IMG/VR virus record: IMGVR_UViG_3300045019_000151
Span: 1-45,818 of that record
From: a virus
DNA length: 45,818 nucleotides
Reading direction: 5' to 3' (one strand)
This document shows, one piece after another, positions 29,909 through 38,159 of this stretch (positions are counted from its first letter, which is position 1; each line of letters starts with the position of its first letter). The translations under genes and the position numbers were made by a program. The notes below the pieces were generated by a model that saw nothing but the letters and a program-made list of their open reading frames with translations, made no database searches and was not told the origin of the DNA.

Positions 29909-30373
29909 ATGAAACCGACACGCTTCGATAGCCTCTTTGCCGCTTACTACGGTCGCCGCTTCTCAATGGTGGAAGCGAGGTTATGGGGTCGAATATCTTT
30001 TTTATTTTCTTTTGTTGAAGCTGTAACTGGAACAGTCGCGTTCTCAGCATGGCTATCAAAGAGCCCCGACCTCGCATCAACCATGGGCTTAGTCATCGCA
30101 ATATCGGTGACAGCAAATCAAGCGATCAAGCCAAAGGAGAAATCCATGGCCCAAGAATTCATGAAGCAAAAATTCGGTGCGATTATTGAGGATGAGTCAA
30201 AACTGTCCGATGACGAACTTGCGTCACGAGTTGCGGCGCTTCAAAACGAGCCCGGATCTGAGATCGAGGCACTTCGCGATCCAGTCTATGTACAAACAGC
30301 ACAAGAATTAGGGTGTAGCCACGCACCCATCCCGCTTACCTTTTGGCAGAAATTCATCAACGCGATAGCCTAA
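29909..30373 (+). CDS. Two-helix membrane cargo protein next to the repressor
   Basis: 154 residues. Two hydrophobic helices at about 27-48 (RISFLFSFVEAVTGTVAFSA) and 56-74 (STMGLVIAISVTANQAI), then a helical, charged cytoplasmic part with ESKLSDDELASRVAALQNE. No strong family match; overall it looks like SLATT-type or superinfection-exclusion morons of prophages. There is no ribosome site before ATG 29909. Instead a proline-rich in-frame stretch (from ATG 29846) ends with TAG directly before it, so coupling or read-through is likely. Followed by a good terminator. Confidence 0.55.
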   Translation: MKPTRFDSLFAAYYGRRFSMVEARLWGRISFLFSFVEAVTGTVAFSAWLSKSPDLASTMGLVIAISVTANQAIKPKEKSMAQEFMKQKFGAIIEDESKLSDDELASRVAALQNEPGSEIEALRDPVYVQTAQELGCSHAPIPLTFWQKFINAIA

Positions 30374-31181: not shown

Positions 31182-31267
31182 AAGTCTTTTATTTCTACTG
31201 CTTTTATCGCTCAAGTAGCTACGGCCGCCGCGAGTCCCTTCAACGCTCTTGGAGAAATCGTAAATGA
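31178..31267 (+). CDS. Unknown 29-aa peptide coupled to recT
   Basis: A 29-codon frame MKVFYFYCFYRSSSYGRRES, then LQRSWRNRK. ATGA overlaps on both sides (31178-31181 and 31264-31267) link it to the flanking genes. The basic, aromatic peptide might be real or act only for translational coupling into recT, which has GGAG ten bases before its start. Confidence 0.4.
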   Translation: MKVFYFYCFYRSSSYGRRESLQRSWRNRK

Positions 31268-32355
31268 ATAGTTTGGTTACTCAAGGGATCGCGCACCCTC
31301 CCGGTGGGATGCACGATTCCAGCGCCACCGCCTTGGTTCTAGATACTGGCAGCATGGACAGCATGATGCGCCTCGCCGAGATCATGGCAAAAGGCCGTTG
31401 GACCATGCCGAAGGAGTACAACGATTCTCCGGGCGACTGCCTTGCAGTCATCATGCAATCGATGCAATGGAAGATGAATCCATACGCGGTCGCGCAAAAG
31501 ACGCATTTCGTCGGCGGAAAGATTGGCTATGAAGCGCAGCTTATCAACGCGGTCATCACTTCGATGGCGCCGACGAAAGACCGACTTCACTACGAATGGC
31601 TGGGTGACTGGGAGAAGATCCTCGGCAAGTTCAAGGAACTCGAAAGCAAATCCAAAAAGGATGATTTCGGGCGTGCGGTGAAATACCGCGTGCCGGACTG
31701 GGATCTGAACGACGAAGCAGGCCTCGGCATCAGGGTGTGGGCCACATTGAAAGGCGAAGATGAACCGCGCGAACTGGTTTTGCTCATGGCCCAAGCAAGA
31801 ACCCGTAACTCTACGCTATGGGCTGATGATCCTCGGCAGCAGCTTGCATACCTCGCAACGAAGCGATGGGCTCGCCTTTACACCCCGGACATAATCTTAG
31901 GCGTTTACAGCCCCGATGAATTGGAAGAACCTCCGCCGCCCGCCAGCAAGCATATGGGCGACGCGCAGGTCATTCATACCGACAAGCCAGAGCTCCCCTC
32001 ATATTCCGAGGAACAGTTCGCCAAGAACCTGCCGGCCTGGAAGGAATTGATCGCCAGCGGCAAAAAGACGCCCGATCGAATCATCGCTACGGTGCAGAGC
32101 AAAGCCTTACTAAGCGACAGCCAGAAAGACCAGATTCGCGCGCTTGCCGCTGCGACTGTCATTGATGCTGCTACCGGTGAAGTCCACCAGCCTGTTCATG
32201 ACATCCACCCGCTGGAATCGCAGATGAACGGCGCTGAGGATGAAGACACCCTGTGCCTGCTGGCCGACCAGATTCGCAGCATCGATAACGAAGCAACCGC
32301 GCAGCACCTGCGCGGAATCTACCAGGCCAACCTCGATCGACTGAACAGGAGATAA
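31264..32355 (+). CDS. RecT-family single-strand annealing protein
   Basis: 363 residues. Residues about 30-130 carry the RecT-type core (MKMN-like KMNPYAVAQKTHFVGGKIGY and YEAQLINAVI, followed by HYEWLGDWEKILGKF), and YLATKRWARLYTPDIILGVY is the conserved C-terminal part of the core. The tail (about 230-363) is charged and less conserved. It anneals complementary strands with the neighbouring exonuclease. This pair supports recombination-dependent replication and repair of the phage genome. Confidence 0.85.
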   Translation: MNSLVTQGIAHPPGGMHDSSATALVLDTGSMDSMMRLAEIMAKGRWTMPKEYNDSPGDCLAVIMQSMQWKMNPYAVAQKTHFVGGKIGYEAQLINAVITSMAPTKDRLHYEWLGDWEKILGKFKELESKSKKDDFGRAVKYRVPDWDLNDEAGLGIRVWATLKGEDEPRELVLLMAQARTRNSTLWADDPRQQLAYLATKRWARLYTPDIILGVYSPDELEEPPPPASKHMGDAQVIHTDKPELPSYSEEQFAKNLPAWKELIASGKKTPDRIIATVQSKALLSDSQKDQIRALAAATVIDAATGEVHQPVHDIHPLESQMNGAEDEDTLCLLADQIRSIDNEATAQHLRGIYQANLDRLNRR

Positions 32356-32358
32356 CAC

Positions 32359-34041
32359 GTGCAGACTCACGATCTCGTTCAAGGCTCCCCGGAGTGGGAT
32401 ACCTTCCGACTCAATCACTTCGGCGCCAGCGAAGCCGCGGCGATGCTCGGCATCTCCACCAGGGTGAAGCGCTCGGAGCTGCTCCACATGAAGCACACCG
32501 GGAACGCAAAAGAATTCAGCGACTGGGTGCAGAAAAACATCCTCGATTACGGTCACGAAGTCGAAGCGCTGGCGCGGCCGCTGGTCGAGCAGATGATCGG
32601 CGAGGATCTCTATCCGGTCACGTGCTCGAACGGCGGGCGACTCTCCGCATCCTGCGACGGCCTGACCATGGGCGAAGACATCGCGTTCGAGCACAAGCAA
32701 TGGAATGCCGAGCTCGCCGCATCCGTCGCCTCCGGAATTCTCCCGGAAGAGTACATGCCGCAGTGCCAGCAGATCCTGCTGGTCACCGGTGCCAGGAGGC
32801 TGATTTTCGTCGTATCGGATGGCACCAGATCGAATATGGCGTTCCTGTGGGTGACGCCCGATCTCGGCTGGCACGAGCGCCTGGCCGCAGGGTGGGCGCA
32901 GTTCCAGAAGGATCTGGAATCCTACGTGCCGCCGGACGTGCCAGTCGAAGCGGTTGGCCGCACGCCGGAAACTCTGCCGGCGCTGCGCATCGAGGTCACT
33001 GGCATGGTCACGGCCAGCAATCTCACGCAGTTCAAAGAGCATGCCCTTGCGGTCTTCGGCGGGATCAACCGGACACTGAAAACCGACCAGGACTTTGCCG
33101 ACGCGGAGAAGACTGTGAAATGGTGCGGCGACATCGAGGAGCGTCTCAAGGCGGCGAAAGCGCATGCCTTGAGCCAGACCGAAACCATCGACGCGCTGTT
33201 CCGTGCGATCGATGACATCACGGACGTAGCGCGCAGCACGCGGCTGGAGCTGGATAAGCTGGTGAAGGCTCGCAAAGAGCAGGTCCGGAGCGAAATCCTG
33301 AAAGAGGGCGTCGATGCGCTGCACGCGCACATTGCAAGCCTGAATGAGCGCATCGGCAGGCCCTACATGCCGTTGATACCTGCGGATTTTGTCTCCGCAA
33401 TGCGGGGCAAGAAAACCGTCGCCAGTCTGCGCGATGCCGTCGCCACCACCCTGGCAAACGCGAAGATCGAGGCGAATGCGCTTGCGGATCGGATCGACGT
33501 CAATCTGAAAGCGCTAATTGAGCAGAGCGAAGGCTATTCGTTCCTGTTTCCGGACATTCCGCAGCTGGTGCGCAAGGCGCCGGAAGATTGCCGGGCAGTG
33601 GTTACCGCGCGAATCAGCGAGCACAAGGTGGCCGAGCAGCGCCGGCTGGATGCCGAGCGGGACCGCATTGCCGAAGAGGAGCGCCAGAAAGCCGAAGCCC
33701 GGATTCGTGCTGAGCAGCAGGCCGCCGCCACAACACAAGTCGTTCAGCAGAAGGAAGTCACCATTCCATTTTCGCCGGTAAACATGCCGCTGCATGCCGC
33801 CGCACAAGTCAGTCATGCGCCAGCGCAGGCGCGTACGCCGACCCTTCGCCTGGGCCAGATCAGCGAGCGCCTCGGCTTCGTGGTTACGGCGGATTTTCTC
33901 GGCACCCTGGGCTTTCCGCCGGCGGCCACTGACAAGAGCGCAAAGCTTTTCCATGAAGCCGATTTCCCACGCATCTGTAACGCGATCGCGCAGCACGCTC
34001 TCGCAGTTGGCCGCCGCGTTGCGGAGCTGGAGCCAGCGTAA
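32359..34041 (+). CDS. YqaJ-type exonuclease fused to DUF1351-like coiled coil
   Basis: 560 residues. The N-terminal 190 residues have the YqaJ/lambda-exonuclease nuclease motifs: GHEVEA (E67), CD100 in SASCDGLTM, E111-H-K113 in FEHKQWNAE. Residues about 205-310 (TASNLTQFKEHALAVFGGIN, ETIDALFRAIDDITDVARST) match the DUF1351-like coiled coil that is usually a separate protein beside RecT/YqaJ genes. The last 80 residues (RLGQISERLGFVVTADFLGT, FPRICNAIAQHALAVGRRVA) form another helical domain. It makes 3' overhangs for RecT. The fusion of all three parts is unusual in length. Confidence 0.8.
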   Translation: MQTHDLVQGSPEWDTFRLNHFGASEAAAMLGISTRVKRSELLHMKHTGNAKEFSDWVQKNILDYGHEVEALARPLVEQMIGEDLYPVTCSNGGRLSASCDGLTMGEDIAFEHKQWNAELAASVASGILPEEYMPQCQQILLVTGARRLIFVVSDGTRSNMAFLWVTPDLGWHERLAAGWAQFQKDLESYVPPDVPVEAVGRTPETLPALRIEVTGMVTASNLTQFKEHALAVFGGINRTLKTDQDFADAEKTVKWCGDIEERLKAAKAHALSQTETIDALFRAIDDITDVARSTRLELDKLVKARKEQVRSEILKEGVDALHAHIASLNERIGRPYMPLIPADFVSAMRGKKTVASLRDAVATTLANAKIEANALADRIDVNLKALIEQSEGYSFLFPDIPQLVRKAPEDCRAVVTARISEHKVAEQRRLDAERDRIAEEERQKAEARIRAEQQAAATTQVVQQKEVTIPFSPVNMPLHAAAQVSHAPAQARTPTLRLGQISERLGFVVTADFLGTLGFPPAATDKSAKLFHEADFPRICNAIAQHALAVGRRVAELEPA

Positions 34042-34097: not shown

Positions 34098-34625
34098 ATG
34101 TTTGAACTGCCCAAGCAAAAAGTAAAACTGGCGTCAGTGAATCCGCGCGCCGAGATTCACGGCGAAGAGAAGAAGCCCGCCTTCGATCTGAAATTCGAAG
34201 CGTCCTGCGCGAATGACGTGCTGATCTATTTCCATGCCGAGCTGCGCAACATGCTGTTCAAGAAAAACGATTCGCCCGACTTGGTTGATCAGGCTGAGAC
34301 CGAGGAGGAAAAGGAAGCGCTGACCGTGCTGCGCTTCTCGAAGCTCGGCGCGCTGAAATGGGATTGGGAAGGCGTCGGCTATACCGTCACCGTTGATTAC
34401 GGCTTGGGCGGTCCGAGCGACATCAAGCTCGGCGATTGCAAGATTGACGGCTTCAGATTCTCGCCGCAGAACGGCGGCAGCGTGCTGGTGGTGTTCCGCG
34501 TGATCTGCCATCCGGAGCGCGATGATGTCGGCCGGCTGTGCGAGCTGATTCAGCGTGAGATCGAAATCACCGTTACGCCGCCTGAACCGACCAACGTCGG
34601 CGAGCTATTCAAGGACGCCGCTTAG
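34098..34625 (+). CDS. Unknown protein downstream of the RecT/exonuclease pair
   Basis: 175 residues, MFELPKQKVKLASVNPRAEI and FEASCANDVLIYFHAELRNM, beta-rich, with an acidic helix in the middle (DQAETEEEKEALTV). Ends FKDAA. This gene is often found next to RecT/YqaJ pairs; an SSB-like or recombination-helper role is a possibility only. GGAG precedes the ATG. Its stop overlaps the tail end of the reversed small gene by 4 bp. Confidence 0.6.
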   Translation: MFELPKQKVKLASVNPRAEIHGEEKKPAFDLKFEASCANDVLIYFHAELRNMLFKKNDSPDLVDQAETEEEKEALTVLRFSKLGALKWDWEGVGYTVTVDYGLGGPSDIKLGDCKIDGFRFSPQNGGSVLVVFRVICHPERDDVGRLCELIQREIEITVTPPEPTNVGELFKDAA

Positions 34626-34816
34626 GTATTGGGCTCTTCCGGCGAAGTCGGACTAGGACTGTCATCGGGCCGCTCTTCCGCATCTGGAAAGTGCTTTCCG
34701 AACAGTGAAACGTCGTTCTTCGGATCCTCGGCCCAGGCTATTGCTTCCGCAAGCCTGGTGCCGCTTGAAAACATATAGAACTTGCCGCCAATTCGGCCCG
34801 TGAAATGTTGAGACAT
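34622..34816 (-). CDS. Unknown 64-aa protein on the opposite strand
   Basis: Begins MSQHFTGRIGGKFYMFSSGT, then helix LAEAIAWAEDPKND, and ends in a proline/serine-rich tail. GGAAGGAACGTC before the ATG is a good ribosome site, which supports this strand. It is one of three minus-strand genes in the rightward operon. Function unknown. Confidence 0.55.
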   Translation of the reverse strand: MSQHFTGRIGGKFYMFSSGTRLAEAIAWAEDPKNDVSLFGKHFPDAEERPDDSPSPTSPEEPNT

Positions 34817-34908
34817 GACGTTCCTTCCCAAAAATAGAACGCTACGCCCGATTTACGTCGCTGTCCTTACAAAAACGCAGCCACTCCACAATTTAAGGAA
34901 GCACTTTG

Positions 34909-35352
34909 ATGCCAATCAAGCCTGAAAACAAGCATCGGTACCCGCCGAACTGGAAAGCGATTCGCGAGCAGGTTCTTGTTCGCGCCTGCCAGCGTTGCGA
35001 GTTCTGCGCCGCCCCGCAATACGGTGTCGGTCAGTGGATCGATGATCGTTTCCTTCTCGCGGCCGGCAGTGCTTTTTACGACCAGATGCAATACGCCTTG
35101 GTGCACTCCACGGCTCGTGAGGCGGCAGATCACTTGAACGAGACTGAACAGCCGACACCGGCTTACATCGTGATCGTGTTGACCATCGCGCACCTGGATC
35201 ACACTCCGGAGAACTGCGATCTGGAGAACCTACGCGCACTCTGCCAGCACTGCCATTTGCGGTATGACGCGCAGCATCATGCGAAGAATGCCCGAGCTAC
35301 GCGGCGGGCGAGGTTGGCTGTTGGTGAACTGTTTGATGGAGATGAGACGTGA
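34909..35352 (+). CDS. HNH endonuclease
   Basis: 148 residues. HNH features: C-x2-C at RCEFC (about 31-35), the central LDHTPENCDLENLRALC segment and CQHCHLRYDAQHH; catalytic DH is LDH (about 98-100). AAGGAAG before the ATG. Similar HNH proteins in phage recombination operons may help DNA processing or be homing-type; it has only weak similarity to the packaging-associated HNH at 23680. Confidence 0.8.
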   Translation: MPIKPENKHRYPPNWKAIREQVLVRACQRCEFCAAPQYGVGQWIDDRFLLAAGSAFYDQMQYALVHSTAREAADHLNETEQPTPAYIVIVLTIAHLDHTPENCDLENLRALCQHCHLRYDAQHHAKNARATRRARLAVGELFDGDET

Positions 35353-35366
35353 TGGCCGTCGAAGGT

Positions 35367-35984
35367 TTAATGCCTACCTATTCCAACCATACATTTAATT
35401 CTTGCAGCAGTGAGAACGCCAGACACATAGGTCAGCTCGTTTCGTGCGTCATTCCAGATGTCCTTTCTCTCACTGGGAAGAATTGGACGCCTGTGATAGG
35501 CAAACACGATTCTCGAGAATTTCTCCTTCTGCATTTCAATTTTCTTTGCAGCAATTGCCAAATGAGCAGAGTCATTCTCAAGCAAGGCGATCAAAGTTCG
35601 CATTTCATCTGGTTTCCAAAGGACCAATTCGTCCAATCTCTCACCAAATGCGGAGGTGATCTCTCTGAAATTTTCAGACGGTGCTTCTCCATCGAGATCT
35701 CGAACAACGCTCTTGATACAGGATTCGGCATCTATAAGTCTTGGCAACAACGCGGCGGCGGATATCCTGGCAAGCTGCATTTCTTCGCGATGGCGACGGC
35801 GTGTCTCTGCAGTAGCCAAAATGACTGTGCCGATCAGCGTTCCTACCGTGCCAATCGCGCCGACCCAAGTACCCCAGTCCGAGGCATCCATTTTAATTCG
35901 GCTATTGATCAGAACGCATATCAAGATCGTCGCAACAAGCATGAAGCAACCGGCGACGATCCTTTCCAAGATTGTGAATTTCAA
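35367..35984 (-). CDS. Membrane cargo protein (moron) in opposite orientation
   Basis: 205 residues, TTG start at 35984 behind GGGAGAAAA. Two membrane helices, about 5-28 (ILERIVAGCFMLVATILICV) and 36-58 (WGTWVGAIGTVGTLIGTVIL), then a 145-residue cytoplasmic helical domain. AT-rich, unlike neighbouring genes, and antisense to the operon. This architecture (two helices and a cytoplasmic sensor-like domain) is common among superinfection-exclusion and abortive-infection proteins, but no family was recognised, so the function is inferred only loosely. Confidence 0.65.
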   Translation of the reverse strand: MKFTILERIVAGCFMLVATILICVLINSRIKMDASDWGTWVGAIGTVGTLIGTVILATAETRRRHREEMQLARISAAALLPRLIDAESCIKSVVRDLDGEAPSENFREITSAFGERLDELVLWKPDEMRTLIALLENDSAHLAIAAKKIEMQKEKFSRIVFAYHRRPILPSERKDIWNDARNELTYVSGVLTAARIKCMVGIGRH

Positions 35985-36016
35985 ATTTTCTCCCTGTTTT
36001 TTGGAGAAATCGTAGC

Positions 36017-36121
36017 ATGAACCTGCAATTGGACATCTTTGCCGACGGCGCCTTGGATTATGTAGATGTTTTCGGAATTTGGATTACAAATAGAGTCGCT
36101 TGGGCCGAAACCATCCAATCC
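36017..36121 (+). pseudogene. 5' fragment of a resident gene (MNLQLDIFADGA...)
   Basis: The ATG at 36017 has a good site (GGAGAAATCGTAGC). Its first 12 codons (MNLQLDIFADGA) resemble the start of the PAPS-reductase-like gene at 36939 (MNHQLDIFAAGA). After this the frame runs into the antisense of the cargo gene at 36122 and has no coding look. Best read as a stub of a gene whose remainder was displaced by the cargo insertion. The frame stays open further, but I do not regard that part as real. Confidence 0.45.
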
Positions 36122-36556
36122 TTAATATGCTTTCGCCAATCCAATCACTATGACAACGGCTGCTACCAGAAAACAAAGCAGACTCATTGTAAGTGCGAAG
36201 AGCATGTTCACAATAGCGTATTTTCTGGATGGGTGTCTTATGACGTTCGCCATGATGCCGCGGGCGTGGACCATGAACACGGCCCAAGATGTGACTGCCC
36301 CGAGAAGGAAAATCGAAAGCGCTACAAGAGAATATGTTTTGAACTGGGTGAACTCGCCTTTTCCTATCAAGGCCTGGATGAATGCAAGCATCGCCGCGAC
36401 ACCCCCGCTATTCAGCACTCCTACTCCTTTGGCGCATTCAAGAAGAGAAGCATGCACCTTCTCCTCCTTCTTAATCATGGATTCAAGATATGTCTTCTGC
36501 TCTTCAGGAGGCAAACTAAGGTACTCGTTTTCGGCGTCTTTTATATCGAATTTCAT
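36122..36556 (-). CDS. Three-helix membrane cargo protein in opposite orientation
   Basis: 144 residues, ATG 36556 behind GGGGAGAAAGT. The N-terminal 40 residues are helical and charged (MKFDIKDAENEYLSLPPEEQ); membrane helices lie at about 44-64, 74-96 and 112-140 (last: LFALTMSLLCFLVAAVVIVI). AT-rich, antisense to the operon. Its leader and first residues (MKFDI) resemble those of the gene at 35984 (MKFTI), so both cargo genes may derive from a common module. Function not known; exclusion or membrane-defence is a guess from architecture. Confidence 0.65.
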   Translation of the reverse strand: MKFDIKDAENEYLSLPPEEQKTYLESMIKKEEKVHASLLECAKGVGVLNSGGVAAMLAFIQALIGKGEFTQFKTYSLVALSIFLLGAVTSWAVFMVHARGIMANVIRHPSRKYAIVNMLFALTMSLLCFLVAAVVIVIGLAKAY

Positions 36557-36585
36557 ACTTTCTCCCCTATAAGAGAAATCCTAGC

Positions 36586-36942
36586 ATGAAGGCCGAGCTC
36601 ACTACAGGCGAGATCGTGACGCTCGCAAAGGAATGCGACTGCCCGCACCACAACGAACCGCACTGGGTCCACGTTGATGCGACTTGGCGCAAGCGTAACG
36701 ACGAGACGCTGCGGGCCACACCATTTGCGCGCCGGTATTTCGCGATGGGCGTGCATCACAAGGAGGAGCAGATCCGAATCGCGCGGAAGCAGTTTGAAAT
36801 GAAGCACCGCGGCATTGTGCGGTTAATCCGGGAGCCGTCGGATGAAATGACGCCGGAACAGCAGGCGAGGGTAGAGCAGGACTTCGCGCACCTGGTGCAC
36901 TCAACGAGTGCGGAAAAAATGGACATGGGAGAGAGGGCATGA
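36586..36942 (+). CDS. Unknown 118-aa protein
   Basis: MKAELTTGEIVTLAKECDCP, HHNEPHWVHVDATWRKRNDE: cysteines and histidines (C18, C20 region, H22, H23) could bind metal. The C-terminal half is charged and helical (RIREPSDEMTPEQQARVEQD). Starts 43 bp into the operon after the cargo gene with AGAGAAATCC as its site; overlaps the PAPS-reductase-like gene by 4 bp. No known family. Confidence 0.6.
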   Translation: MKAELTTGEIVTLAKECDCPHHNEPHWVHVDATWRKRNDETLRATPFARRYFAMGVHHKEEQIRIARKQFEMKHRGIVRLIREPSDEMTPEQQARVEQDFAHLVHSTSAEKMDMGERA

Positions 36943-38159
36943 ACCATCAACTCGATATTTTCGCCGCCGGCGCCCGTCGTATGCAGATGACCGAGTCGAT
37001 AGAGCTTACGGTCCAGTCACTGCAGGCATACGGGGAAAGCCACGATCACTGGGGCATTGCATGGTCGGGAGGAAAAGACAGCAGCGCGACACTAACGCTG
37101 ATTATGCACCTGCTCGACACAGGGAAGGTCAAACGGCCGAAGACGCTTACCGTTTTCTATGCCGACACTCGGCAGGAGTTGTTGCCGCTAGCCGCTGCAG
37201 CGCGCCGGATTATGGACGAACTCGAGGAGCGCGGCATTCATGTTGAGATCGTTACGGCGCCGATGGACAAGCGTTTCATGGTTTATATCCTTGGCCGCGG
37301 GGTTCCTCCGCCAAATAACAACACGCTCCGGTGGTGCACCAGGCAGATCAAGATCGATCCAATGGAACAGGCGCTGCGGGATCGCCTCGATCAGCTCGAA
37401 GGCAACATCCTGATGATCACTGGCGTCCGCCAGGGTGAGAGCGCGATCAGAGACCGTCGCATCGAAATGAGCTGCGGGAAGGATGGTGCTGAGTGTGGCC
37501 AAGGCTGGTATCAGCAGATCCTGCCAAACGCAAAAGGCCTGCGCGGCCGGCTTGCCACCCTGGCGCCGCTCCTGCACTGGCGGGTGTGCCACGTCTGGGA
37601 ATGGCTCAAGCATTGGGCGCCGGCGGCGGAATTTGGTGACTGGAGCACCGCGACGATCGCGGACGCCTACGGCGGCGACGAGGCGGAAGAGATCAACGCC
37701 CGGACCGGCTGCACCGGCTGCCCGCTGGCACAGGAAGATACCGCGCTCGATACGATCCTGCTGAATCCGCATTGGTCATACCTGCGCCCGCTGAAAGGGA
37801 TAAAGCCGCTATGGCGCGAGCTCCGTGAGCCACAGCATCGACTCCGGAAAGCCGGCTTGGAAATCCTGAAGGATGGTAGCTACGCGAAGAACCCGCAACG
37901 TATGGGACCGCTCACGTTCGATGCCCGTTTGATGGGACTCGAACGCATCCTCGGAATCCAGGCAGAAGTCAACGCTGCGGCTCGCGCCGCTGGCCGGCCA
38001 CAGGTCGACCTTATCAATGGAGAAGAGGAAGCGCGCATCCGTGAATTGATCTGCCTGGAGACGTGGCCCCAAGGCTGGGACGGCGACGAGCCGATCGCTG
38101 ACACGGTGATGGATATTGTTTATCAAAATGGCGCAGTTCAGCCGCGCTTGTTCGCATAG
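36939..38159 (+). CDS. PAPS-reductase/DndC-like ATP pyrophosphatase family protein
   Basis: 406 residues. SGGKDSS (43-49) is the ATP-PPase P-loop, RWCT (131-134) and TGVRQGES (161-168) are the following family motifs. Cysteines C133, C179, C186, C258, C261 (RTGCTGC) could hold a 4Fe-4S cluster, as in DndC. DndC acts in DNA phosphorothioation; no other dnd genes are visible in the window, so this is a stand-alone phage member of the family, whose substrate is unknown. N-terminal MNHQLDIFA contains QLDIF, close to the beta-clamp motif QL(S/D)LF. Confidence 0.8.
   Translation: MNHQLDIFAAGARRMQMTESIELTVQSLQAYGESHDHWGIAWSGGKDSSATLTLIMHLLDTGKVKRPKTLTVFYADTRQELLPLAAAARRIMDELEERGIHVEIVTAPMDKRFMVYILGRGVPPPNNNTLRWCTRQIKIDPMEQALRDRLDQLEGNILMITGVRQGESAIRDRRIEMSCGKDGAECGQGWYQQILPNAKGLRGRLATLAPLLHWRVCHVWEWLKHWAPAAEFGDWSTATIADAYGGDEAEEINARTGCTGCPLAQEDTALDTILLNPHWSYLRPLKGIKPLWRELREPQHRLRKAGLEILKDGSYAKNPQRMGPLTFDARLMGLERILGIQAEVNAAARAAGRPQVDLINGEEEARIRELICLETWPQGWDGDEPIADTVMDIVYQNGAVQPRLFA

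Follow-up and report, generated by a model that had tools for sequence, protein, structure and literature searches.

Reversed genes in the recombination operon of a temperate phage: probable lysogeny cassettes with a two-way boundary sequence

How can genes that read against the early recombination operon of a phage be placed, expressed and exchanged there? This question is raised by the window analysed here, the whole stretch of 45,818 nt of the virus record IMGVR_UViG_3300045019_000151. Accessory genes termed morons have reportedly been described from the lambdoid phages HK97 and HK022 by Juhala and Hendrix. The definition of a moron used here is found in the available text of two papers (PMC4378225, PMC5567305). 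The acquisition of morons has been called mysterious, and a survey of Mu-like phages sought a common sequence at variable genes and, in the available part of the report, found none (PMC4378225). The common sequence found in this study is simple to mutate and could explain both the expression and the exchange of morons, thus offering a testable answer to how the dormant viruses of Burkholderia-like hosts swap spare genes.

The ORFs at 34622, 35367 and 36122 are real and run opposite to the operon (Table 1), as the first-pass annotation had stated. Its description of the last two as AT-rich agrees with GC contents of 47.7% (35367) and 46.9% (36122) versus 57.7-62.0% in the neighbouring HNH, 36586, PAPS reductase and YqaJ genes, so that the base composition of both larger reversed genes is unlike that of their neighbours, as expected for morons; the GC content of 34622 is 53.8%. 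In both larger genes GGGAGAAA precedes the start, and leader and first codons form a 19-nt direct repeat of 89% identity (35976-35994 and 36548-36566), which bears out the reported similarity of leaders and N-termini, apart from the start codon of 35367, which is TTG. The reversed genes were also correctly said to end near stubs of resident genes. The stop codon of 35367 (35367-35369) falls within the MAVEG stub, and the stub MNLQLDIFADGA, judged by its sequence, is a remnant of the start of the PAPS reductase gene. The same layout of stub and cassette as at 36017 is seen in L097, L109, L166, L170, L222 and other loci. A single island of all three reversed genes, as first proposed, was rejected, and only its two larger members hold together: 34622 lacks the joint described below, has no relatives among the viral contigs searched, and probably arose by another type of insertion or is an orphan.

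Table 1. Features of the reversed genes and of the surrounding operon in the window.
Feature	Position	Strand	Remarks
RecT-family annealing recombinase	31264..32355	+	candidate agent of cassette exchange
YqaJ / RecE-like exonuclease	32359..34041	+	
Third reversed ORF	34622..34816	-	ATG start, 64 aa, without joint; longer TTG start at 34831
HNH endonuclease-like gene	34906..35352	+	left of cassette 1
Stub MAVEG(L)	35352..35369	+	start codon overlaps HNH stop; left end of cassette 1
Reversed cassette gene 1	35367..35984	-	TTG start, 205 aa, starts MKF(T/D)I; family R1 (most frequent reversed family)
Joint 1, GAGAAATCGTAGCATGA	36004..36020	both	forward: RBS region/start codon; reverse: putative extended -10 at 36009-36017, TGCTACGAT on minus strand
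PAPS reductase start stub MNLQLDIFADGA	36017..36052	+	36015-36052 is a 79% copy of 36937-36974
Reversed cassette gene 2	36122..36556	-	ATG start, 144 aa, starts MKF(T/D)I; family R15
Joint 2, GAGAAATCCTAGCATGA	36573..36589	both	forward: RBS region/start codon; reverse: putative extended -10 at 36578-36586, TGCTAGGAT on minus strand
Operon gene behind joint 2	36586..36942	+	118 aa, no family
PAPS reductase / DndC-like operon gene	36939..38159	+	406 aa

A joint of about 17 bp, GAGAAATC(G/C)TAGCATGA, links each of the two larger reversed genes to the operon gene that follows, and its two copies form an 18-nt repeat of 94% identity (36004-36021 and 36573-36590). In operon direction the joint seems to provide the operon gene with its ribosome site and start codon; on the reverse strand it reads as a putative extended -10 promoter (TGnTAnGAT) of the reversed gene. 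The free positions of the joint follow a -10 box, with A(-8) in 27 of 30 sites, and its variable letters are the less conserved letters of such a box. A -35 box was not recognised in the column profile of the joint. The promoter consensus scan, which required a -35 box, placed no promoter at either joint, and its four hits were not above shuffled sequences (2.5, sd 1.7). The conserved extended -10 motif makes expression of the reversed genes on their own in the lysogen likely. Among open-licence PMC papers no prior description of this joint was found. The reused bidirectional joint, which is the main point of the present analysis, was also missing from the first-pass annotation.

Recurrence of the joint was studied in the window and 87 related viral loci (L002-L088); a reversed ORF was counted if it comprised at least 60 aa, had a Shine-Dalgarno sequence and started 24-55 nt upstream. 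Such an ORF accompanied 33 of the 55 ANNNTANCATG sites versus 27 of 546 motifs altered at a -10 position. Where the C pairing with G(-14) was changed, no reversed ORF was seen (0/36), and changing the base of T(-7) left three in 66. At all 20 AATCNTAKCATGA sites of these loci a reversed ORF begins 17-38 nt upstream. The joint recurs much more often than chance would allow. In a total of 146 joints the distance from start to start was 28-38 nt in 137. Spurious antisense ORFs were rejected as an explanation, as the reversed families recur and both the Shine-Dalgarno sequence and the start lie at a fixed distance. Some of the 146 joints surely are chance occurrences, e.g. that at a terminase-like ORF in L135, and of the 26 sites obtained by the family search three had no qualifying reversed ORF.

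The PAPS reductase gene, the only match of a megablast search against phages, allows the same comparison at one position. The joint is present at 11 of 79 such loci, ten of them with a reversed ORF (the exception is L069), while among the 68 loci without the joint a reversed ORF occurs once (L037). Both joint and reversed ORF are missing from 58 of the 79 loci, where a forward stop codon is located upstream, near the gene start. Hence, the reversed genes are not conserved in place and, as morons do, lie between genes that are direct neighbours in a relative. These data also bear on the simplest reading of the motif, namely a strong ribosome binding and start signal of the forward genes beside which reversed ORFs are incidental. 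The motif does hold an A/G-rich Shine-Dalgarno sequence and ATGA, but it is found mostly with reversed genes, the opposite of what this reading predicts, and variants that change -10 letters lose the reversed ORF. On the -10 variants and the PAPS reductase loci this explanation was rejected; we give it almost no credence.

Partners on the two sides of the joint vary widely. The 146 joints combine 76 reversed with 70 forward families, R1 standing next to 18 forward families and F1 next to 12 reversed ones, and the same forward gene is met with different reversed genes across phages and vice versa. Together with the presence of the joint at only 11 of 79 PAPS reductase loci, ten of them with a reversed ORF, this upholds the earlier suggestion of an exchange hot spot, even if re-assortment is not fully free, as 49 combinations were observed versus 56.5 in permutations. 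Where two loci share the forward gene (54 pairs), identity falls from 0.77-0.85 to 0.25-0.30 upstream of -16; where they share the reversed gene (nine pairs), it drops from 0.82-0.90 to 0.23-0.34 downstream of +15. Both sets thus display a short shared border sequence with non-homologous modules beyond it, and cassette identity switches at the joint or within the first codons of the forward gene. Inside the joint, related pairs are no more alike than unrelated ones (0.67 vs 0.65), and for this reason the breakpoint cannot be placed within it. Exchange of cassettes is well supported by these observations.

An alternative is that unrelated morons evolved the same compact extended -10 element independently, its TG coming free from C+ATG, so that the joint would be neither inherited nor have a role in exchange. 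Convergence of this kind would fit the conserved positions, which are those of an extended -10 box, as well as the equal identity of the joint in related and unrelated cassettes. However, G at -9, which is not a letter of the sigma-70 consensus, persists in 20 of 30 sites that were retrieved independently of the motif, in pairs sharing a reversed gene the joint and the first codons of the forward gene travel with it (L116/L012, L222/L233), and the motif is concentrated in one bacterial family. We regard convergence as rather unlikely, although it is the strongest of the competing explanations.

The wide re-pairing also weighs on the idea of paired functions, with the reversed gene guarding the lysogen and the forward gene next to it acting as the matching antidote in the lytic cycle. 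The model for such pairs is Pseudomonas phage JBD26, in which the minus strand encodes Tab, provided with a promoter of its own, and the plus strand encodes anti-Tab (PMC10884400). As here, a minus-strand prophage gene with its own promoter (a predicted one in our case) lies within a plus-strand lytic operon; in JBD26, unlike here, this is the late operon and the available text presents a fixed pair at a single locus with no shared joint described. Apart from the many partners of R1 and F1, the forward genes include methyltransferases, NinG and PAPS reductase, the last mostly without a reversed neighbour. With R1 beside 18 forward clusters, constant pairing is not observed, and fixed defence/antidote pairs were rejected as quite improbable.

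We consider it probable that the larger reversed genes are exchangeable lysogeny morons joined to the operon through a bifunctional boundary sequence. Layout, recurrence, re-assortment and breakpoints were observed, while promoter activity, timing and recombinase are inferred. Cassettes would be inserted at the start codons of genes of the early recombination operon, the joint at the cassette end supplying ribosome binding site and ATG to the following operon gene. On its other strand the joint would form the extended -10 promoter, with its TG provided by the C+ATG at the start codon of the operon gene, and transcripts of the cassette gene from this promoter would have a 5' leader of some 20 nt. 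In the lysogen, silencing of the operon by an S24-type repressor would allow the reversed promoters to fire, and upon induction the operon would read through them. Because every cassette is proposed to carry the same joint, crossovers located in the joint, or in the first forward codons, could re-assort cassettes and operon genes, probably helped by the RecT/YqaJ annealing system of the phage itself, and repeated insertion would leave short start-codon stubs behind.

It is very improbable that the joint is instead a dedicated site of a site-specific recombinase or another DNA-binding protein. A short sequence shared at one cassette end would suit such a site, but the left end usually consists of a stop/start overlap only, without a second copy of the joint, the variable letters coincide with the less conserved -10 letters, and among the window proteins scanned there was no dedicated recombinase besides RecT/YqaJ and the phage integrase.

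Several known systems share parts of this arrangement. Gene borders in the nin region of lambdoid phages carry short conserved sequences that are said to guide module exchange (Clark and others). The likeness lies in the early-operon gene borders, with NinG among the forward genes here, whereas the present boundary also resembles a divergent promoter and its modules have opposite orientation. Integron gene cassettes are interchangeable and have one end sequence in common, as do the cassettes described here, for which, in contrast, no linked cassette integrase was found and each of which seems to have its own promoter. Lambdoid morons, as far as described in the available sources, are likewise single accessory genes between phage genes, of different GC content, with a probable promoter of their own (a predicted one here) and variable among relatives. 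They differ in that the present cassettes are reversed, their putative -10 element is fused to the translation start signals (ribosome binding site and start codon) of the operon gene that follows, and one joint is reused over dozens of families with no terminator seen. In Pseudomonas phage Fc02 an exclusion gene expressed in the lysogen runs against a lytic operon (PMC9936078), an orientation shared by the reversed genes here, for which expression in the lysogen is likely; in the available account these are overlapping genes at the repressor, whereas our cassettes lie at gene starts.

The products of the reversed genes are nearly all without a known family, and neither Pfam, PHROG nor PADLOC gave a match for the 35367 and 36122 proteins. 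The former has two N-terminal hydrophobic helices followed by a helical bundle. Its predicted structure is confident (pLDDT 88.6), with no fold match in BFVD or PDB at E<=0.001, and its sequence profile gave only weak matches to PDB entries, SH3 domain-binding protein 5 and others (best E 0.0095). The 36122 protein, with hydrophobic helices and an LNxGG motif, has a poorly predicted structure (mean pLDDT 63.5); a direct search of viral contigs found no relatives, and its family R15 includes a Pandoraea prophage protein (L217). Membrane proteins, proposed earlier for this cargo, are not the rule, as a simple hydropathy cut-off finds a membrane segment in 13 of 76 reversed families (37 of 146 sites). 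Nor did the proposed defence or exclusion function find backing in PADLOC, with one weak match (E 0.0075) among 75 proteins. Protection against other phages by cassette proteins is plausible. The joint may serve as a search handle for reversed prophage genes that are likely active in the lysogen and are candidate exclusion or host-fitness factors.

The reversed transcripts might also act mainly as antisense RNA that dampens leaky or incoming lytic transcription of the operon. A precedent is the antisense RNA STnc6030 of prophage BTP1, which mediates superinfection exclusion (PMC7067206). In a simple scan no minus-strand terminator-like site was found directly downstream of 35367 or 36122, which suits this function and, other than expected for morons, leaves both genes without a terminator of their own. 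The reversed ORFs, however, are open, have Shine-Dalgarno sequences at a fixed distance and form protein families that recur across phages; a mainly antisense function appears improbable.

More tentatively, and with less confidence than in the exchangeable morons themselves, the temperate phages of Burkholderiales may run a counterpart of the integron that needs no integrase. Annealing recombination at the self-propagating joint and start codon could then splice any reversed lysogeny gene ahead of any early operon gene, each splice yielding a divergent promoter, a ribosome site and a lysogeny/lysis switch, and dozens of lysogeny proteins would be carried in this way. The taxonomic distribution of the joint speaks for the exchangeable morons. 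A genome scan returned 34 contig stretches, 30 of which we take to be from Burkholderiales; as CTCC (the reverse Shine-Dalgarno) was required in it, the reversed Shine-Dalgarno content of these stretches is not evidence. Among 369 genomes of the class the motif was present in 1, which was the seed; among Burkholderiaceae it was present in 38 of 398 genomes, in a scan that did not require CTCC and shared some genomes with the scan that returned the 34 stretches.

The plus-strand operon of the 45.8-kb virus record is interrupted by three ORFs in opposite direction, as the first-pass annotation had claimed and ORF mapping bears out (table). The GC contents of the two larger ones, cassettes 1 and 2, are 47.7% and 46.9% versus 57.7-62.0% in their neighbours. 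Each of the two begins next to the start of a plus-strand gene that points away from it, and both divergent junctions have GAGAAATC(G/C)TAGCATGA in common, hereafter called the joint. The A/G-rich part and the ATG of the joint are used on the plus strand by the operon gene. The minus strand reads TCATGCTA(C/G)GATTTCTC, in which TGnTAnGAT matches the consensus of an extended -10 box; a short distance further on come the Shine-Dalgarno sequence (SD; GGGAGAAA) and start of the reversed gene. A column profile of 30 joint sites from the similarity-fetched loci described below has A(-8) of this box, a letter that the selection of sites did not require, in 27 and G(-9) in 20, and no -35 box is recognisable; a consensus promoter scan of the window gave no match at the joints. 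Leader and MKF codons are also common to both cassette genes (19 nt, 89%), although these fall into different families, which suggests that the reverse leader, too, is exchanged between cassettes.

Features of the operon and its reversed ORFs in the window
Feature	Position	Strand
S24-type repressor	29079	+
Small gene near repressor	29909-30373	
RecT	31264	+
YqaJ/RecE-like exonuclease	32359	+
Reversed ORF	34622-34816	-
Terminator-like hairpin	34837-34849	-
HNH gene	34906	+
Reversed ORF, cassette 1	35367-35984	-
Leader/MKF repeat, cassette 1	35976-35994	
Joint of cassette 1	36004-36020	
Reversed ORF, cassette 2	36122-36556	-
Leader/MKF repeat, cassette 2	36548-36566	
Joint of cassette 2	36573-36589	
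PAPS reductase/DndC-like gene	36939-38159	+
Excisionase	38160	+
Integrase	38584	+

Recurrence of the joint was examined in 87 viral loci fetched by protein similarity and not by the motif (80 with the PAPS reductase, four with the cassette 1 protein and three with the 34098 protein). Together with the window they contain 20 occurrences of AATCNTAKCATGA, including both window sites that had suggested the motif, and a reversed ORF starts 17-38 nt upstream of all 20. For the looser ANNNTANCATG, 33 of 55 occurrences in the same set have a reversed ORF of at least 60 aa with an SD. Ten control forms with letters changed at -12/-11, -14 or -7 gave 27/546 (singly 5/92, 7/193, 4/67, 8/92, 0/16, 0/6, 0/14, 1/23, 1/30 and 1/13), numerators but not denominators being de-duplicated. 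When close divergent ORF pairs were listed from these loci without using the motif, TA(G/T/C)CATG again stood at many operon-gene starts, and pairs lacking it were listed too.

A motif scan of viral contigs yielded at least 120 stretches, and 66 of 122 sites combine a reversed ORF of at least 60 aa with a forward ORF of at least 45 aa. Many of the remaining sites look like chance matches, as expected because the pattern is very short and the collection very large. With an added reverse SD, 34 stretches were found in a genome collection of 84,980 species, 30 of them in Paraburkholderia, Cupriavidus, Pandoraea, Burkholderia, Caballeronia, Trinickia, Massilia, Noviherbaspirillum or another member of the Burkholderiaceae and four in other bacteria. 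When the SD was not required, the motif occurred at 46 sites in 38 of 398 Burkholderiaceae genomes (backward-read control pattern: one site) and in one of 369 genomes of the class, namely the seed genome. A qualifying reversed ORF lies at 23 of 26 de-duplicated sites from the family search, and at 33 of 36 after adding ten sites from a further set.

The proteins at the 146 de-duplicated joints form 76 clusters on the reversed side and 70 on the forward side. The most frequent reversed family, that of cassette 1 (22 sites), adjoins 18 forward clusters; conversely, two forward clusters of 15 and 12 sites adjoin 12 and 11 reversed clusters, respectively, and that of the PAPS reductase (10 sites) adjoins eight. 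Clusters with at least two members on both sides give 49 combinations at 63 sites, against a mean of 56.5 and a minimum of 50 for random pairing, so the pairing is loose but not random. In 54 pairs with the same forward but different reversed genes, identity is 0.77-0.85 from the ATG on and 0.25-0.30 upstream of -16. In nine pairs with the same reversed but different forward genes, it is 0.82-0.90 across the reversed gene, 0.73 at -25 to -16, 0.90 at -16 to 0, 0.66 in the first 15 nt of the forward gene and 0.23-0.34 thereafter. Loci L116 and L012 are near-identical as far as the ATG and unrelated past it. Identity therefore switches either within the joint or within the opening codons of the forward gene. 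Of the 80 PAPS reductase loci, one was too short to compare; the joint is present in 11 of the other 79, ten of these with a reversed ORF, and one of the 68 without it has a reversed ORF (L037). Exceptions noted are L037, L069, L253, L256 and L260. Breakpoints might be placed by the joint itself or by selection for function; identity within -16 to 0 is 0.67 in same-forward pairs versus 0.65 in unrelated pairs.

In 19 pairs of neighbouring joints, no more than 400 nt separate the ATG of one joint from the end of the reversed gene that comes next, and several retain, as a scar, the opening codons of a known forward gene. Examples are MIPDLSRTDRQHR ahead of a second, full MIPDLSRTDRQH gene in locus L097, MTKERP in Cupriavidus loci and MTAVISPCGTYRYRLTHPAES in locus L170. 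The start-codon stubs noticed earlier in the window fit this pattern of scars left ahead of cassettes: cassette 2 and then the full PAPS reductase MNHQLDIFAAGA come after stub MNLQLDIFADGA (36017). On the left side of the cassettes, the reversed ORF frequently has its stop codon within a few nt past the stop of the preceding operon gene. Such a stop was found at 110 of 146 joints and is of RTGA type in 82 (TTGA counted too), compared with 2247 of 5167 in long ORFs generally, an excess that is consistent with, and weak evidence for, insertion at start/stop overlaps.

The reversed proteins are mostly without known identity. Seventeen Pfam families matched one or two members each among 75 scanned (DUF1488, DUF6680, DUF6566 with one match, TonB_C and others), and PADLOC gave one weak match to this set. 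A terminase-like match among them shows that chance accounts for some of the 146 sites. By a simple cut-off, only 13 of 76 reversed clusters (37 of 146 sites) have a membrane segment. The structure model of the cassette 1 protein, of good confidence, shows two N-terminal hydrophobic helices and a helical bundle, and a fold search with it found no match. Many reversed proteins of about 67-110 aa (L170, L173, L218, L240 and other loci) have the pattern Y.GY near the start and EA...A near the end, and look distantly related despite their separate clusters. Among the 33 forward genes scanned are those for PAPS reductase, NinG, methyltransferases acting on cytosine and on adenine, a RecA-dependent nuclease, DUF5131 and DUF1643, which are early, nin-like accessory genes.

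This layout would give each cassette an operon-independent promoter and leave the operon start intact, which would suit the needs of a lysogeny gene placed harmlessly in a lytic operon. Since phage annealing recombinases accept diverged homology, according to two reports (PMC2327257, PMC3945230), RecT/YqaJ of the phage is a natural candidate agent of cassette exchange. For the cassettes, expression in the lysogen, use of the promoter and dependence on the recombinase are inferred. The arrangement is best classed as a variant of the morons using a bifunctional boundary sequence; because a scan found no terminator, a moron feature, directly after either reversed gene, we claim that the cassettes work like a moron and not strict membership. 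About 500 nt past the cassette 1 stop lies a terminator-like hairpin, and antisense transcripts of cassette 1 might extend across the HNH gene as far as this point. The PAPS reductase matches DndC (DNA phosphorothioation) models in PADLOC (E 1.7e-32) and is widespread among viral contigs (317 stretches). A possible further lysogeny gene is the small one close to the repressor, which matches PHROG 6315 and, weakly, a 2TM effector in PADLOC (E 2.3e-4).
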